In this document: piece by piece, positions 1 through 5,752 of the stretch
Layout of the letters: each line of letters starts with the position of its first letter
Numbering within the stretch: the first letter of the stretch is position 1
IMG/VR virus record: IMGVR_UViG_3300045789_000075
Coordinates: 1-32,234 of that record
DNA from: a virus
DNA: 32,234 nt
Direction: 5' to 3' (one strand)
The notes under the pieces: model-generated
What the model saw: the letters and a program-made list of their open reading frames with translations, nothing else
Databases searched by the model: none
What the model was told of the DNA's origin: nothing
Program-made: the position numbers and the translations under genes

Positions 1-1112
1 AGTCAACTAAGTTTGAAGATTTAGATTCTTTGAGAGACTATGCTCAAAATGAACATGATGCTATAAAATACGTCCCTATAGACCATGGACGACTTCAAAT
101 GCAGGATGACAGATTAATATTTAATGGCCACGATTTCTTAAAATTCAATGAACATGGCATTAAATCATTATTCACAGCAATTGGAGTTAATGGCTTATAC
201 CCTTGTATGATGGCTCCAGAAGGTACTTTAGTAGCTAGTCATTTTGTTACTAAGTTACTTTTACAAGATAACGTGGAAAGAATACTTAGTAATAAACAAC
301 TAATAATTAATAATGACACAATAATTGGAGTTGTATCTAATCAATATAATAGATACTCAAACCATAGATTCTTAGAAGACTTTGTATCAAAGAATGACAT
401 AGCAAATACAATAGACTTTGAGCGTGGAATGGTTAAAAACACTAAGATGTCATTAAACTGGCTTGACAAAGAATATACAGGCATTGAGATTGACGGAAAA
501 CTTGACCGTTCTAGAATAGGATTCTACTCAGGCAATTCAATGGTAGGAGATGCACCAATTGGATCAGCGTTGAGTATATTTGATACACTTTGTACTAATG
601 GAATGAAGATAAAGTCTAATATCAATTCCATGCGTATAGTACATAGAGGTTCTATGGGTATGAAGTGGCGTATGCAGAAAATGATGGAAGAAACAAGAAA
701 CCAGTATAAAGCCGTTAAGGAGCGTTTAGAGACATTATTAGAAATACCCTTCGAAAACCACACGGCAGAGAGACTTCTTTCAAGTAACGCCCCTTTAAGC
801 ATCATTCCAGAGCTAAAAGAGAAAAAGCTATGGCATACTAAGAAGAAATTCAACTCTCCAGAAAATTCAGTTATGGATTTAAGGAGATCAATAAGTGTAG
901 TACAACATTCACCTATAAAATATGGTGGTATCCATACTCATAAGATATGGGACAGCCATTACAGGAAAGGCAACCGTAGTATGTATCATTTTGTAGGTGC
1001 ATTTACAGAGTTTGCTCAAACACAGACTCCAGAAGTTCAGTATCAAATAGAAGAAGAAGCTGGTGAATTAACTTCATGGATACATAAAAATAAAGCAGTA
1101 CTATTAAATTAA
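1..1112 (+). CDS. DUF932-like phage protein (5' end cut by window)
   Basis: The reading frame is open from base 3 to the stop at 1110-1112 and runs off the left edge, so the start is outside; the TTG at 30 is not a convincing start. About 370 residues are visible. The segment reading GVVSNQYNRYSN followed by a helix, and later CTNGMKIKSN with a downstream IVHRGSM, match the general pattern of the DUF932 (phage/plasmid-like, TIGR03299) family, which often sits next to recombination and replication genes. Its biochemical role is not established. Here it heads the early, rightward unit and is followed by a structured gap and then small regulators and a Red-type recombination pair. The family call rests on motif resemblance only; function is unknown. 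Confidence 0.6.
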   Translation, partial: STKFEDLDSLRDYAQNEHDAIKYVPIDHGRLQMQDDRLIFNGHDFLKFNEHGIKSLFTAIGVNGLYPCMMAPEGTLVASHFVTKLLLQDNVERILSNKQLIINNDTIIGVVSNQYNRYSNHRFLEDFVSKNDIANTIDFERGMVKNTKMSLNWLDKEYTGIEIDGKLDRSRIGFYSGNSMVGDAPIGSALSIFDTLCTNGMKIKSNINSMRIVHRGSMGMKWRMQKMMEETRNQYKAVKERLETLLEIPFENHTAERLLSSNAPLSIIPELKEKKLWHTKKKFNSPENSVMDLRRSISVVQHSPIKYGGIHTHKIWDSHYRKGNRSMYHFVGAFTEFAQTQTPEVQYQIEEEAGELTSWIHKNKAVLLN

Positions 1113-1138
1113 TCAGGATAGTACTAATCAGATTAATT

Positions 1139-1218
1139 GGGCAGTCTCAGGCGGGGAAAGTGGAGGGAATATTCAGGTGTAAGGTGATTCTGGAGTATTC
1201 AGGCAGGACTGCCCTTTT
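1139..1218 (+). ncRNA. Candidate structured RNA, GGA-rich, closed by a 9-bp stem and followed by TTTT
   Basis: GGGCAGTC (1139-1146) pairs with GACTGCCC (1207-1214), with one further G-U pair inside. The enclosed 60 nt are purine-rich and C-poor and contain five GGA trinucleotides (near 1155, 1162, 1166, 1192 and 1206). They also hold a 12-nt direct repeat with one mismatch (1166-1177 and 1192-1203). Four T residues follow the right arm directly, as in an intrinsic terminator. It lies in the 177-nt gap after the DUF932-like gene. It could be a small RNA with its own terminator, a terminator with an oversized loop, or an mRNA processing site. The pairing is visible; the function is inferred. 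Confidence 0.45.
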
Positions 1219-1289
1219 CATTAATATAAGTAATACTACTAATATATGATACATAACCAAAGAAACATCAAAAAAATAGAAAGGACATT

Positions 1290-1562
1290 ATGGATAAAAA
1301 AGAAATACATGAAGCAACAAAAGGAGAACATACTACCACATATTATCCAGACATAGACGATATTCTACATCTTATACAATTAGAAACACATTTTGAAAAA
1401 GGATGGATTTCTGATGTAAAAGAAGAAAGAGTAAAAGCAATTGAATGGGGATTAAAAGTGCTACAGTATCAAGAATTAACAGAAGTAAGTTTCTATTTAG
1501 AACGCATAAAAGATGAATTACTTGCAATCCGTACAGCAATATATGATACAAGCGATGAGTAA
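1290..1562 (+). CDS. Small acidic hypothetical protein
   Basis: This encodes 90 residues starting at an ATG preceded by AAAGGAC, a reasonable ribosome-binding site about 6 nt upstream. The protein is rich in Glu and Lys and is predicted by eye to be mostly helical. The middle (HFEKGWISDVKEERVKAIEWG) carries an amphipathic helix pattern. No signal peptide, membrane segment or metal-binding motif is visible, and no family is recognised. It stands between the structured element after the DUF932-like gene and the promoter region of the HTH regulator, so it belongs to the early operon. A modulator of host or phage functions is possible but unsupported. Confidence 0.6.
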   Translation: MDKKEIHEATKGEHTTTYYPDIDDILHLIQLETHFEKGWISDVKEERVKAIEWGLKVLQYQELTEVSFYLERIKDELLAIRTAIYDTSDE

Positions 1563-1617
1563 ATTAATCAGATAGGTACTATTCGGTCATAACCAATGGT
1601 CAACCAAGCATTTAAAG

Positions 1618-1644
1618 TTGACAAGTGATATTTATTAATATAAT
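1618..1644 (+). promoter_or_regulatory. Sigma70-type promoter upstream of the HTH gene
   Basis: A perfect TTGACA (1618-1623) is followed by TATAAT (1639-1644) with a 15-nt spacer; an alternative -10, TAATCT at 1641-1646, gives 17 nt. The start of transcription would be near 1652, leaving a leader of about 30 nt before the ATG at 1681. A second pair, TTGTTA (1651-1656) and TATAAT (1674-1679), has a 17-nt spacer but would start inside the gene. AAGTGA (1623-1628) and its complement TCACTT (1658-1663) flank the start and could be operator half-sites. The hexamers are visible; activity is inferred. Confidence 0.55.
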
Positions 1645-1680
1645 CTTTAATTGTTACTCACTTCTAACTATAATATAATC

Positions 1681-1866
1681 ATGGATATAAGAAAACAATG
1701 TCAAGAGCTACAGGTCAAATTAGGGCCAATAGCAGATGAATTGGGCTATTCCAGAAATTATGTTGGAATGGTATTAAACGGCAAACGCCAAAATCACAAA
1801 ATAACTTCAGCAGTTTTCTTAGCGTTAGAAAAACGAAAAGCAGAATTGCGAAAATTAATCGGATAA
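1681..1866 (+). CDS. Small Cro/XRE-like helix-turn-helix DNA-binding protein
   Basis: From the ATG at 1681 the product is 61 residues; the upstream TTG at 1651 would overlap promoter-like sequence and is less likely. Residues 12-36 (VKLGPIADELG, then YSRNYVGMVLNG) fit an XRE/Cro helix-turn-helix: an alanine in helix 2, glycine in the turn, and a recognition helix followed by the usual LNGKR. The protein ends soon after a third basic helix, so it is a bare DNA-binding domain. There is no clear Shine-Dalgarno, so translation may be weak or depend on a short leader. It lies directly behind a strong promoter-like sequence and ahead of the exonuclease gene, which fits an autoregulated early repressor or Cro-type switch. 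The target is unknown. Confidence 0.65.
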   Translation: MDIRKQCQELQVKLGPIADELGYSRNYVGMVLNGKRQNHKITSAVFLALEKRKAELRKLIG

Positions 1867-1881
1867 CCGAGAAAGGCCAAT

Positions 1882-2823
1882 ATGAGAACATCTCATACTA
1901 AAATTAATTTATCAGTAAGCGATTGGAAAGGGAGATTACCCTTCATAGGTGCATCTTCTGCACATAAAACTCTACCTAATTCTGATTACCAACACACATT
2001 TTGGAATGAAAAAGTAAGTGAAGTAGAACCTGAAGATATATCAGAATTACCACAAATTATACGTGGCAACAGAATAGAGCAAGTAATGCCTGATTGGATC
2101 GAGAAAGACTATGGCATGAAGATTAAACCAAACACTCAAACTTACCTTAGTAAGAAATTTCCATGGGCTATAGCAACACCAGATGGCTTCTATAAAAATA
2201 GCGAAGGTACATACGGTATTGAAGAAAAAGCCCCATCAGTATTTAATGTTAATTATGGAGAACCAGACACAGACGACGTACCACAGTATAACTTAGTTCA
2301 AGTTCATCATACAATGGCAGTTATGCCTGAATTAGTAGGCTACTTCTTATTTGCATGGAACGAAAATGGTTTACGCAGGTATATAATCAAGAAAGATAAA
2401 AGCATAGAAACAGCACTTATGGAGAAGGAAAATCGCTTCATGGGTTATGTCAAAGAAAAAATCCCTCCTCCACCTAAAAATGAAAAAGACTTAATATATC
2501 ATTTCTTCAAGTCTAATAAGAAGTACATTGGTAGTCCCTCTGCTCAATTACTTCAAGACAGTAACGAACTATATCAAATACGTAAATCAAACAAAGCAAA
2601 TAAAGAACGAGAATCTATCCTAAGATTTAAAGTACAGCAAGGTATAGGCGAAAATGCCGGTATAGAATACCCTGATGGTAAAAAACTAAGAATGGATAGA
2701 ATATCTAGTTCAGCTTTACAATTTGATAGTGCAAAGTTCAAACAAGAAAATCCAGATCAACACAGCAAATACTGCACAAAAGAAAGCAAACCATACATCA
2801 AGTTAGTATTCCCTAGAGATTAA
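1882..2823 (+). CDS. YqaJ/lambda-exonuclease-type 5'-3' exonuclease
   Basis: A 313-residue protein whose core matches the YqaJ-type PD-(D/E)XK nuclease fold: RGNRIEQVM (Glu66), then ATPDGF (Asp101), then GIEEKAP (Glu114 and Lys116), then a helix with PQYNLVQVHH (Gln140). These are the positions used for metal binding and catalysis in lambda exonuclease relatives. Such enzymes resect double-stranded ends and hand single strands to an annealing partner. That partner is encoded next, across a 190-nt structured gap. The residues after about 210 are rich in Lys, Asn and Ser and less recognisable. The ATG is preceded by GAAAGG. The nuclease call is strong; substrate details are inferred from the family. 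Confidence 0.8.
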   Translation: MRTSHTKINLSVSDWKGRLPFIGASSAHKTLPNSDYQHTFWNEKVSEVEPEDISELPQIIRGNRIEQVMPDWIEKDYGMKIKPNTQTYLSKKFPWAIATPDGFYKNSEGTYGIEEKAPSVFNVNYGEPDTDDVPQYNLVQVHHTMAVMPELVGYFLFAWNENGLRRYIIKKDKSIETALMEKENRFMGYVKEKIPPPPKNEKDLIYHFFKSNKKYIGSPSAQLLQDSNELYQIRKSNKANKERESILRFKVQQGIGENAGIEYPDGKKLRMDRISSSALQFDSAKFKQENPDQHSKYCTKESKPYIKLVFPRD

Positions 2824-2824
2824 A

Positions 2825-2976
2825 GCGGTTTAGAGGCTAAGACTGTATGTGGTTAGTGTTTCACCGATGCTCAATGGCAAAGGTAATGTCCACAGCGATT
2901 CAGCAGTTAAATCAATACTAAGCTCATTGGCTTGTCCATTAGACAGCAAGCACGCTTTACGATGTCTCTAAGCCGC
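2825..2976 (+). ncRNA. Candidate structured RNA of about 152 nt closed by a 12-bp stem
   Basis: Bases 2825-2836 (GCGGTTTAGAGG) pair with 2965-2976 (TCTCTAAGCCGC, read with its 5' T), giving 12 consecutive pairs of which two are G-U. Inside, TTAGTGTT (2853-2860) can pair with AATACTAA (2914-2921), and TGTGG (2848-2852) with CCACA (2890-2894); these two cross, so they are alternatives or a pseudoknot. GCTCAATGGC and GCTCATTGGC recur as near-direct repeats. No open reading frame fits the 190-nt gap, and no T run follows, so it is not a simple terminator. It separates the exonuclease from its annealing partner, so it may control expression or processing of the mRNA. Function unknown. Confidence 0.45.
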
Positions 2977-3013
2977 ACTCCCACATCAACTTCAACATAT
3001 AAATAAGGTAACA

Positions 3014-3940
3014 ATGAAAAAAGAAATAACTAAGAACATTGATGAAAATCAATCAGCAATTGAAAAGTGTCTCTTAGATGGAGATTTAAGTAAATTAACT
3101 GAAGATCAAAGAAGCAATTATTATCAAATGGTATGTGAAACTACTGGTCTTAATCCATTAACTCAACCATTTCAGTACATAGTCTTAAATGGAAAGTTAA
3201 AGATGTATGCACTCAAAGGTGCAACAGATCAGTTACGAAGAATATACGATATATCCTGTGAAGTAAAAACTACAGAAAAGATCGAAGACCTGTTAGTTAT
3301 TACAGTAAAAGCTACCAACAATAAATCTGGTAGAGTAGACGAAGATATGGGATTTGCCAAAATCTCAGGTTTAAAAGGCGAGATGTTAGGTAATGCAATG
3401 TTAAAAGCAACCACTAAAGCCAAACGTCGTGTAACCTTATCTATGTGTGGATTAGGCATGTTAGATGAAGATGAGATTGCTTCAATACCTGATGATAAAG
3501 GTAATGGTAGAGGTAAAAAGGAATTTGTAAGTAGTCCTACAGCTAAATCTGAAGAGTTAAAAGAAGCATTAGTTGAAGAAGAACCTACTCCAGAACCAAT
3601 TGAAGTTCTTACTCCTCCAGTTTCTAAAGATTCCAGCGACAAAGCATATGAAGCCGCTGAAAGTTTATTAGATGAAGCATTTGCATTCTGTAAAGACCAA
3701 GATATTCACGACAGAATAATTAATCATCTAAATGATGCAAAATATGATGAGACAAAAGAGACAAATGAAATTCTCACTAAATTTGCTACTCAACATCCAG
3801 AAAACATGTTAACTTTTCAAAGTGTTGCTTCTCAAAATAATAAGAAATGGCAATCAGAAATGCAAAAAGATGCATATGGGCAATTATATACATGGATGGG
3901 AACCCTTAATAGTTACTTTACTGAAAGGGAGGCTGAATGA
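3014..3940 (+). CDS. Bet/RecT-like single-strand annealing recombinase
   Basis: A 308-residue protein. Residues 35-75 contain YYQMVCETTGLNPLTQPF followed by a strand and LKGATDQLRR, the N-terminal pattern of phage Bet/RecT-type annealing proteins. Residues 112-155 carry GFAKISGLKGEMLGNAMLKA, then TKAKRRVTLSMCGLGMLDEDE, which matches the conserved 'sets of mutation-sensitive basic residues then GLGMLDE' region of the family. After residue 165 a Pro/Glu-rich linker leads to a helical C-terminal part. These proteins anneal complementary strands produced by an exonuclease, here the upstream YqaJ-type enzyme, forming a Red-like system. The start has AAGG upstream. The stop overlaps the next start (ATGA), so the two genes are translationally coupled. 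Confidence 0.75.
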   Translation: MKKEITKNIDENQSAIEKCLLDGDLSKLTEDQRSNYYQMVCETTGLNPLTQPFQYIVLNGKLKMYALKGATDQLRRIYDISCEVKTTEKIEDLLVITVKATNNKSGRVDEDMGFAKISGLKGEMLGNAMLKATTKAKRRVTLSMCGLGMLDEDEIASIPDDKGNGRGKKEFVSSPTAKSEELKEALVEEEPTPEPIEVLTPPVSKDSSDKAYEAAESLLDEAFAFCKDQDIHDRIINHLNDAKYDETKETNEILTKFATQHPENMLTFQSVASQNNKKWQSEMQKDAYGQLYTWMGTLNSYFTEREAE

Positions 3941-4281
3941 ATAAACTTGTAGTACAAATAACAATTCCTGAATGGATTAATCCTGAGTTATGGGAAGAAT
4001 TCAAAGAACACAGGAAGTTATTAGGTAAAAACAAAGAACTTAATCATTTATCAACTAAAAGAATATTAACTAAACTGTTAAAATTCAAAGATCAAGGATA
4101 TGATCCAAACAAAATACTTGATGCCGCTATTGAAAATGGTTGGACATCAGTTTTTGTTACTAGAGAAATGGAACAATCCAAAAACAAAACTAGAGGTGGT
4201 TGGGCAGGATTAGACCCTGATCATCAAATTCAACAAGCAACTGAAGATTTCTTAAAGGGGGGAAATGTCACAATCAACTGA
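3937..4281 (+). CDS. Small protein resembling a phage replication-initiator C-terminal domain
   Basis: A 114-residue protein starting inside the stop codon of the annealing protein. The pattern WEEFKEHRK, then a basic loop, then LTKLLKFKDQGYDPNKILDAAIENGW recalls the helical domain found at the C-terminus of many phage O-like replication proteins (W-x2-F-x2-HR, then L-x2-L-x4-G, then a final x-A-I-x-x-G-W). The N-terminal DNA-binding half of those proteins is absent, so this would be a stand-alone domain. It precedes a loader-like gene, the usual order of initiator then loader. The resemblance is by eye and moderate; an alternative is an unrelated helical protein of the recombination operon. 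Confidence 0.4.
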   Translation: MNKLVVQITIPEWINPELWEEFKEHRKLLGKNKELNHLSTKRILTKLLKFKDQGYDPNKILDAAIENGWTSVFVTREMEQSKNKTRGGWAGLDPDHQIQQATEDFLKGGNVTIN

Positions 4282-4750
4282 TCCAACTATAAATCCTCAA
4301 GTTAGAACATTTGTTACAATGCTTTGCGAAGGATTTAATGTGCCTAATTCATTAACTAAAATGCAAGCATTTAATGATAAACTAACCCATCCTCATCTTC
4401 CTGCACTTAAAGAAACATACAATATATTCACAGATGGCAGAGCATCTACTAACAAGATGCCAACCATTGCAGAAGTAATGGAAGTTTATAAAGGAGTAGT
4501 TAAAAGATTAACTATGGATTCAGAAAAATCATTACTTGAATCACAACCTAAAGAAATTGACTATGCCAAAAGCAAAGAGCTTTTTCATAAACTTAGACAA
4601 ATGATTGCTGGCAAAATACCTAAAGTCAAAGAATCAATAGATCGTACAACTGTTGGTTGGCAGAATGGTTATAAATTTACACTCAGCAGGAACAAAGATG
4701 GTCGAGATTACGTATATTACCATAATCACCCCATCAATGATCGTTCTTGA
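4265..4750 (+). CDS. Possible helicase-loader-like replication protein
   Basis: A 161-residue protein overlapping the previous gene by 17 nt, with a strong GGGGGG stretch as ribosome-binding site just before the ATG. The first 80 residues look like the N-terminal helical domain of phage helicase-loading proteins such as G39P or lambda-P-like factors: an early FVTMLCEGF helix, then LPALKETYNIF, then a KMPTIAEVMEVYKG segment resembling their 'fpPsiaEv' region. The C-terminal half is basic with no known motif and has no P-loop. Because no phage helicase is seen, such a protein might recruit the host DnaB. This is inference from position and weak pattern. Confidence 0.35.
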   Translation: MSQSTDPTINPQVRTFVTMLCEGFNVPNSLTKMQAFNDKLTHPHLPALKETYNIFTDGRASTNKMPTIAEVMEVYKGVVKRLTMDSEKSLLESQPKEIDYAKSKELFHKLRQMIAGKIPKVKESIDRTTVGWQNGYKFTLSRNKDGRDYVYYHNHPINDRS

Positions 4751-4762
4751 ACTCTCAGATCG

Positions 4763-4833
4763 CTCTCTGCTGAAAGAAAGCTAGGCAACTCATGGATGAG
4801 TACCTTTTTCTGAGGCCGTATTTCAGTAGAGGG
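4763..4833 (+). ncRNA. Candidate structured RNA of 71 nt closed by a 13-bp stem
   Basis: CTCTCTGCTGAAA (4763-4775) pairs with TTTCAGTAGAGGG (4821-4833) over 13 consecutive positions, including two G-U pairs (4764/4832 and 4769/4827). Within the 45-nt loop, ACTCA and TGAGT form a 5-bp hairpin with a TGGA tetraloop (near 4788-4801), flanked by AGG and CCT that can also pair. No T run follows and no ORF fits the 106-nt gap. It stands between the loader-like gene and the zinc-ribbon gene. The helix is seen in the sequence; whether it is a processing site, regulator or separate RNA is unknown. Confidence 0.45.
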
Positions 4834-4856
4834 CTTTACAACTATAACGAGGTATT

Positions 4857-5045
4857 ATGGAAGAATACCCTAACGGTGATTGGCGTAAATACAAAATGGC
4901 CAGACTTAATAAAAAACGATTCTGTATTCAATGCAAATCTGAAATAAATAACTCAGACCGCAAAATACATAAACGTACTAAGTTCTGTTCTGAAGATTGT
5001 GCCGATGACTATAAATGGAACAAACAACTTAAAAAGGTAACATGA
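4857..5045 (+). CDS. Small zinc-ribbon protein
   Basis: A 62-residue basic protein. Cys23 and Cys26 (FCIQC) and a second pair near the C-terminal half (FCSEDC) give a CxxC...CxxxC arrangement with a 20-residue spacer, typical of small zinc-ribbon or FCS-type zinc fingers. The rest is lysine-rich, which would suit nucleic acid binding. The ATG has GAGG just upstream, and the stop overlaps the start of the next gene (ATGA), so it is coupled to the alpha-CTD-like protein. It follows a structured gap. It may be an RNA- or protein-binding accessory factor; the exact family is not identified. Confidence 0.55.
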   Translation: MEEYPNGDWRKYKMARLNKKRFCIQCKSEINNSDRKIHKRTKFCSEDCADDYKWNKQLKKVT

Positions 5046-5752
5046 ATACTGAAGAAATAGACTTATTAATGAAATTAGTAGATAAAGTTGGTGACAAATC
5101 AGAATCACCAAAAGTTAATCCAGACATGCGAGCCAAAGCAGAAAGAGCGACTAAACTTATTAACCAACAAACAGAAAGGATAAAACGACTTGAAAGTGAC
5201 ACAGAAGTAATAGAAGAAATGGTCGAAACTTTCCGAACAAATCAACATTCTATAAATAGAGAACTTAAACATGCTATAGCTAATGTACCAAAGATTAAGC
5301 CTGTTGATACATTTAATAACTCTGATGATTATAGAGAGATGGTAAAGCTACTGGAGGATTTAAAAACTACCATGTATAGGCACTCTGACCAGTTAAAAAC
5401 TATTGAAGAGTGGATCAAAGCTACAGGACATGTAGAAAAAGCAAGACTTCGTGAGGAAATAGCTTCTGAAGATGAAGACGTAGATTTAAGAGAAGTAGCT
5501 CTGGAAGATGTCATTGAACCACTTGTACCCCACATTACAGAAGATTGGGATAGTAAATTAGTTCATGAAGAAATAGTGTTAGATACAAGAACACATAAAC
5601 TATTGAGAGCTTTAAATGTAGTTACTTTTGAAGAGTTAATGTGCTTTACCGAAAAAGAACTTATGAGCAATAATAATTTTGGAGGTTGTTCAATGGCAAA
5701 ACTAAACAAAGACTTACAAGGATTAGGTCTTTCACTATCGAAAGGAGAATAA
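5042..5752 (+). CDS. Coiled-coil protein with an RNA polymerase alpha-CTD-like C-terminal domain
   Basis: A 236-residue acidic protein. Residues 25-130 are rich in heptad-like helices (coiled-coil by eye). Residues 140-175 form an acidic linker. Residues 176-234 match the helix-hairpin-helix fold of the RNA polymerase alpha C-terminal domain: IVLDTRTHKLLRALNV, then TFEELMCFTEKELMSNNNFGG, then KLNKDLQGLGLSL. In alpha-CTD the same order is 'l.lsvR..ncL...i.tv.dL...te.eLl...nlG..sl.ei...L...gl.L'. Arg183 falls where the DNA-contacting arginine of alpha (Arg265 in E. coli) lies; the usual lysine in 'NLGKKS' is Cys216 here. It may bind DNA or host transcription factors and redirect host transcription. 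The domain call is motif-based; the role is inferred. Confidence 0.6.
   Translation: MNTEEIDLLMKLVDKVGDKSESPKVNPDMRAKAERATKLINQQTERIKRLESDTEVIEEMVETFRTNQHSINRELKHAIANVPKIKPVDTFNNSDDYREMVKLLEDLKTTMYRHSDQLKTIEEWIKATGHVEKARLREEIASEDEDVDLREVALEDVIEPLVPHITEDWDSKLVHEEIVLDTRTHKLLRALNVVTFEELMCFTEKELMSNNNFGGCSMAKLNKDLQGLGLSLSKGE

Follow-up and report, generated by a model that had tools for sequence, protein, structure and literature searches.

Three of the four large intergenic gaps in the early operon of an uncultured phage were found to contain conserved folded RNAs of the sense strand, which are neither chance stems nor DNA hairpins, although for one of them (g4) this is only probable. The phage is represented by IMG/VR virus record IMGVR_UViG_3300045789_000075, the 32,234 bases of which are referred to here as the window, and it is probably marine, judging by the company of related contigs. 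The rightward genes of the operon code, in order, for a DUF932 protein (PF06067), a small helix-turn-helix (HTH) repressor (phrog_1468), a YqaJ/RecE-like exonuclease, an annealase and an O-like replication protein. The RNA elements are f2 in gap 1, g3 in gap 3 and g4 in gap 4, and g3, the best supported, is a previously uncatalogued pseudoknotted RNA that probably controls the expression of the annealase. The positions of the elements and of the gene behind g3 are as follows, with the evidence in brackets.

1139–1214, + strand: f2, the RNA of gap 1, with a 9-pair closing stem and a purine-rich interior, then TTTT (stem; covariation)
2825–2976, + strand: g3, the RNA of gap 3, whole element (covariation; match by model R2, built without the window)
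2825–2837/2964–2976 (P1), 2842–2846/2903–2907 (P2) and 2848–2852/2890–2894 (P3), + strand: helices of g3 (covariation)
About 2863–2865/2882–2884 (P4) and 2920–2923/2954–2957 (P5), + strand: helices of g3 (covariation)
2872–2876, + strand: pseudoknot strand CAAUG in the P4 loop of g3, with its partner CAUUG at 2925–2929 in the P5 loop (complementarity)
2908–2917, + strand: conserved unpaired junction UAAAUCAAUA of g3, with ACGAU at 2959–2963 (near-invariant alignment columns)
2977–3013, + strand: leader from g3 to the annealase start, without G ahead of the Shine-Dalgarno region (predicted unpaired)
3014–3940, + strand: single-strand annealing protein gene, 3' of g3 (26% identity to a RecT-family relative)
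4754–4761, + strand: conserved CUCAGAUC 5' of the g4 stem (alignment of relatives)
4762–4834, + strand: g4, the RNA of gap 4, with a 14-pair closing stem (0/300 shuffles; model R3; weak covariation)

An earlier note on this DNA had described the rightward genes as tightly packed with only four gaps above 100 nucleotides (nt), one carrying a promoter and the other three a stem-closed element. The gap list agrees: in order the gaps measure 177, 118, 15, 190, -4, -17, 106, -4, 3, 10, 7, 4, 10 and 0 nt, so that exactly four (177, 118, 190 and 106) exceed 100 nt and the remainder lie between -17 and 15 nt. Gap 2 holds a promoter-like TTGACA/TATAAT pair and no long stem beyond dinucleotide shuffles (261/300). 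Where closing stems of 9, 12 and 13 pairs had been counted, the best stem of gap 1 (1139–1214, GGGCAGTCT/GGACTGCCC) again has 9 pairs, while those of gap 3 (2825–2976) and gap 4 (4762–4834) are longer, with 13 and 14 pairs. All three elements contain G-U pairs and differ from one another in sequence, as had been noted. When compared with dinucleotide shuffles, the stems of gaps 3 and 4 were beyond chance (0/300 each) and that of gap 1 was marginal when taken alone (15/300). Folding against shuffled controls gave a weaker outcome than this stem test, as whole-gap minimum free energies were only mildly below shuffled (z = 0.09, -1.79, -2.05 and -2.14), and energy alone is therefore insufficient to settle the structure. 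These z-scores and the gap 1 stem are what could be said for chance stems in AT-rich gaps, an explanation of negligible probability that is refuted for g3 and f2, given the stem tests of gaps 3 and 4 and the covariation of g3 and f2 described below.

To obtain relatives, a clade with the same gene order was gathered by annealase and DUF932 searches and by motif scans of IMG/VR viral contigs (L002/L007, L003/L009, L004, L005/L008, L045, L047–L049, L052–L056, L058, L060–L062, L064, L065 and L069). These contigs are environmental and partial, the alignments comprise 6–18 related sequences, and the E-values of the covariance models are rough.

Every clade member in which the exonuclease–annealase junction is covered was found to carry g3, a three-way junction of about 140–170 nt made up of a long P1, an arm of P2, P3 and P4, and P5. 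P1 was recovered unaided by RNAalifold from an ordinary MAFFT alignment (n = 11), with two-sided changes at 9/13 pairs. A pair count on the MAFFT alignment gave two-sided changes at 10 of the 13 P1 pairs with 96.5% paired (0/500 shuffles), and pairing was 34–50% when the partner was slid by 1–3 columns; across the g3 tests such slid-partner controls were 29–51% paired. P2, P3, P4, P5 and the kissing pseudoknot were added by inspection. P2 covaries from ACUGU/GCAGU to ACCGU/GCGGU and GCCGU/ACGGU. The CAAUG/CAUUG kissing complementarity is present in 12/12 sequences; its four inner pairs are invariant, so that its support is limited to this complementarity and to the outer pair, which covaries. 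L009 and L045 do not have the common pseudoknot sequence, and in L009 a GUUCUC/GAGAAC complementarity, identified by eye, could substitute. In a hand-cut core including the pseudoknot (n = 12), 24 of 36 pairs were changed on both sides, with 95.1% of the cells paired (0/500); these figures overstate the fit to the chosen structure, since the segments were cut by hand.

A less biased test of g3 than the hand-cut core is the search with R2, a covariance model of P1, P2 and P5 only, built from eight sequences without the window, L063, L009 and L045. It matched the window with 71.3 bits (E 2.8e-15) and L063, a contig without any of the clade proteins, with 63.4 bits (E 2.9e-13). The g3 elements of L009 (2.9e-5) and L045 (5.6e-4) were the top matches of their loci, and the L004 record was matched at 2.1e-4. 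In an alignment made with the model, and hence biased towards its structure, 14/22 pairs were two-sided (0/500 shuffles). No g3, f1 or g4 was found by covariance models in contigs with more distant annealases.

The gap 1 element, f2, has close copies after DUF932 in L049, L007 and L005, and related copies in L004 and L047. In six phages its closing stem has two-sided changes at 6/8 aligned pairs, with all cells pairing (0/500 shuffles). A sister family, f1, is located at neighboring positions in the clade. Its closing stem, which changes in sequence, is followed by UGAGG and an interior rich in purines, and GUGUA precedes the closing strand; 5/8 of its pairs are two-sided and 99.3% paired (0/500 shuffles). 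Model R1 identified f1 up to three times per record (three copies in one 38-kilobase record). Outside the clade f1 occurs in L090 and L098, in the gap before a T7-type primase-helicase gene, and in L097, an otherwise unrelated-looking contig whose f1 interior is nearly identical to that of L090 and whose closing stem is different. A single family of f1 and f2 was considered and rejected, and the two are kept apart because R1 does not recognise f2. A hammerhead ribozyme was likewise discarded for f1, as CUGAUGAG is present in some copies but arises only through variation of the closing stem. For the G-rich interior of f, a G-quadruplex or a CsrA sponge was also considered as a possible role. 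Matches to the f pattern in genome contigs were, among those listed, scattered over unrelated phyla and look like chance.

Two further elements were observed in the T7-like phages. Pelagiphage HTVC134P and relatives (L229, L231 and L232) have a different two-hairpin element in the endonuclease I–primase gap, where L098 and L090 carry f1. On the reverse strand of L090, just after f1 and before the primase gene, there is a second element closed by AACCAGTAACTA/TAGTTACTGGTT (12 pairs).

The gap 4 element, g4, was identified by model R3 in ten clade members, between the gene of a 161-amino-acid protein and its downstream neighbor (a zinc-ribbon gene in most), and its start, CUCAGAUCGCUCU, is nearly invariant. 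R3 also gave a weaker match (E 0.0017), on the opposite strand, in a T7-like phage. Covariation of g4 was not above shuffles in a MAFFT alignment (81/500); in the model alignment, which favors the structure, the result was 4/500 on score and 265/500 on pair number. The conserved start of gap 4 (window 4754–4775) can also form a small hairpin, CAGA-UCGCUC-UCUG, which is exclusive with the 14-pair stem.

Compensatory changes in relatives, which the earlier note had named as a check, are thus clear for the elements of gaps 3 and 1, while for gap 4 position and sequence are conserved and covariation is weak. Its suggestion of a family of structured RNAs holds in so far as these are conserved structured RNAs, but they belong to at least three unrelated families rather than to one.

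At paired positions of the coding strand, G-U far exceeds A-C in five counts (19:0, 43:2, 12:0, 17:3 and 1:0); for g3 the shares are 43 versus 2 in the core and 19 versus 0 in P1. It follows that the transcribed strand folds, unlike a DNA hairpin or an RNA of the opposite strand. This excess, together with the orientation of the f copies, every one of which points with the genes, also makes it very improbable that f, g3 and g4 act at the DNA level as operators, cruciforms or recombination linkers, even if g3 adjoins a swapped gene segment and the short h modules described below are palindromic and occur in both orientations.

In 12/12 clade members the distance from the end of g3 to the annealase ATG is 27–37 nt, and 5' of its last 14 nt the leader is free of G in 11/12, with one G in L009. 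This nearly G-free leader is predicted to be 64–85% unpaired, the 20 nt before the ATG being predicted mostly unpaired. Behind g3, the annealase core is of several types: RecT (phrog_2780), another RecT type (phrog_2760) and, in L045, a protein which we take to be ERF-like from the motif NSTSYVENCETSAIGRALA and for which Pfam gives no match. The window annealase is 26% identical to the RecT type across most of its length and aligns to the ERF-like protein at the C-terminal part only, and from these alignments g3 and the C-terminal part of the annealase appear to be retained when the core is replaced.

The fixed distance, the unstructured leader and a product that handles single-stranded DNA recall the gene 32 operator of phage T4. 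In T4, a pseudoknot 5' of the gene 32 start is bound by gp32, which spreads over an A+U-rich leader (PMC3014915). The operators of T4, T2 and RB69 are, like g3, pseudoknot RNAs 5' of an A+U-rich unstructured ribosome-binding leader of a phage gene for single-strand DNA handling (PMC3014915), and by sequence alone g3 has both a pseudoknot 5' of the start codon and a predicted unstructured leader over the ribosome-binding site. It differs from them in its size of about 140–170 nt, its three-way junction with kissing loops and the exchange of the annealase core between families. A second comparison is with purine riboswitches, which have a three-way junction with conserved joining strands and loop–loop kissing of two arms, and lie in leaders. 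All of these features are found in g3, so ligand sensing may be considered for it; in contrast to purine riboswitches, g3 has no shared sequence, no Rfam match and no visibly sequestered ribosome-binding site.

We would give even chances to the reading that the three non-promoter gaps hold conserved cis-acting RNA elements of the early mRNA, with g3 as an annealase control element resembling the gene 32 operator. The elements would then act in cis within the early polycistronic mRNA. Folded g3 could be bound by a protein (the annealase, through its C-terminal part, or a phage single-stranded DNA-binding protein) or by a small ligand, and this binding would adjust translation of the annealase relative to the exonuclease, by the same logic as in the T4 operator. 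Several points weigh against this reading. The ribosome-binding site is predicted mostly open and no alternative pairing hiding it was seen, meaning that there is no visible expression platform for switching. The exchange of the annealase core argues against an operator that is purely autogenous, unless the RNA is read by a single-stranded DNA-binding protein or by the C-terminal part that the annealases have in common. In L063, g3 lies about 104 nt 5' of a DUF932 gene and not of an annealase gene. Position is the sole basis for the mechanisms suggested for the f elements and g4, and the shuffle tests disregard the relatedness of the aligned sequences.

Alternatively, the elements could act in trans, as small RNAs released from the early transcript by cleavage or termination. 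In favor of this, f1 is multicopy, occurs also in the T7-like phages and L097, has near-identical interiors with different closing stems, and f often ends in a T-run; g3 too is present in an otherwise unrelated contig. However, g3 has a short and constant spacing to the annealase start and no T-run in the window, and we consider this explanation unlikely. Somewhat less probable still are RNase processing or mRNA-stability sites. Like the RNase III processing sites in the early mRNA of T7, the elements described here are structured and intergenic, with long stems between genes of one early polycistronic transcript, and the T7-like marine phages have other two-hairpin elements in the endonuclease–primase gap. 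The T7 sites have no conserved loops and pseudoknot comparable to those of g3, whose conserved unpaired strands and pseudoknot exceed what an RNase III substrate needs.

For the f elements, a role as terminators, attenuators or 3' ends is the more likely one, given that a T-run accompanies the stem and that the spacing to the next gene varies. All 27 copies examined are intergenic and have the orientation of the genes; in most of them, though not in all, a T-run directly follows the closing stem of 7–14 pairs. The rival account, which concerns only f, takes f1 and f2 for large intrinsic terminators or attenuators in early transcription and draws on this stem, on the T-rich sequence that usually follows and on the constant use of the coding strand. 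It is given a low probability, for the interior is long (roughly 40–110 nt) with conserved motifs, several copies have no T-run, and a simple terminator scan (loops of up to 8 nt only) gave none at f.

Among known RNAs, Rfam 15 gave no match to the window above the gathering threshold, permissive searches to E 10 gave only sub-threshold, chance-like matches, and ARAGORN found no tRNA or tmRNA. No description of these elements was found in the open literature, subscription literature being outside the search. Structured RNAs have been reported from marine phage mRNAs, namely the manA and wcaG motifs of cyanophages (PMC2864571) and a glutamine riboswitch in phage Melnitz (PMC9004378), and for gut microbiomes there is a list of candidate structured RNAs close to phage genes (PMC8040213). 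The manA, wcaG and Melnitz RNAs occur with metabolic genes or tmRNA, unlike the window elements, which lie in an early recombination operon and have no Rfam match.

Annotations of phage recombination operons usually show densely packed protein genes and nothing in the spaces between them; in this operon the spaces contain conserved RNAs, of which at least two have strong covariation and are absent from Rfam. If g3 does control the annealase, it would join the operator of T4 gene 32 as another pseudoknotted control element for a single-strand DNA protein of a phage, and one that outlives replacement of the annealase core. More tentatively, g3 may represent a new class of phage regulatory RNA, sensing a ligand or protein, that stays before annealing genes through core exchange and serves other early genes, and that forms with f1/f2 and g4 a layer of RNA control carried between marine phage lineages. 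The families and their models are direct targets for searching marine metatranscriptomes.

Gaps 1 and 2 contain, besides the stem element and the promoter already claimed for them, short palindromic modules. The remaining features of this part of the window are as follows.

1107–1138, no strand: palindromic module h1, AATTAATC-AGGATAGTACTAATCA-GATTAATT, just after DUF932 (AATCRGGATAGTACTAA recurs in 12 viral contigs)
1570–1586, no strand: palindromic module h2, AGATAGGTACTATTCGG, within gap 2 (17-mer present unchanged in three viral contigs)
1618–1644, + strand: promoter-like TTGACA (1618–1623)-15-TATAAT (1639–1644), 5' of the HTH repressor gene (read directly)
1681–1866, + strand: small HTH protein, a transcriptional repressor in PHROG (match to phrog_1468)

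Several of the 12 contigs with AATCRGGATAGTACTAA carry a copy adjoining DUF932, in either orientation, and all three with the exact h2 17-mer are clade members. Both orientations of the h modules (window 1107–1138 and 1570–1586, and L047, L048 and L061) are seen near the promoter of the HTH repressor, and instead of RNA elements the modules may be operators or terminators that work in both directions. The promoter scan was limited to spacers of 16–18 nt and so left TTGACA-15-TATAAT unscored; it listed TTGTTA-17-TATAAT at 1651–1679, and promoter-like sites were no more numerous than in shuffles.

Further genes of the window code for a short protein with a weak HNH-type match and for RusA, and a 236-amino-acid protein (5042–5752) has a weak match, under the curated cut-off, to the RNA polymerase alpha C-terminal domain (alpha-CTD). 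Neither a cultured phage belonging to the clade nor a host genome emerged from GenBank phage DNA or from DUF932 searches of genome contigs and proteins. The window gave a single short Campylobacter phage match in GenBank phage DNA, inside the annealase, the DUF932 gap of L009 gave none, and the exonuclease as query gave no match in viral contigs.

Two other features were seen after DUF932 in relatives. Two tandem hairpins, missing from the window, directly follow it in L002 (4218–4260), L003 (3607–3645), L004, L005, L045, L053, L055 and L058; their stems vary and their loops are conserved, with AGCUGAGUC or AGUGAGUC followed by AUGGAU or AUGGAA. A conserved non-coding stretch, GGUUGGAGGUGCUUGGGUAGCUGGCAAGAAGUGCCA ... 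AAAAAGUGAGUCCGAGCAAGGAGG ... GGGUUAGGGGUGGGUGCG, occurs after DUF932 in L009 (7640–7850), L045 (1700–1880) and on the reverse strand of L004, where only its last part is clear, and is possibly another structured RNA.

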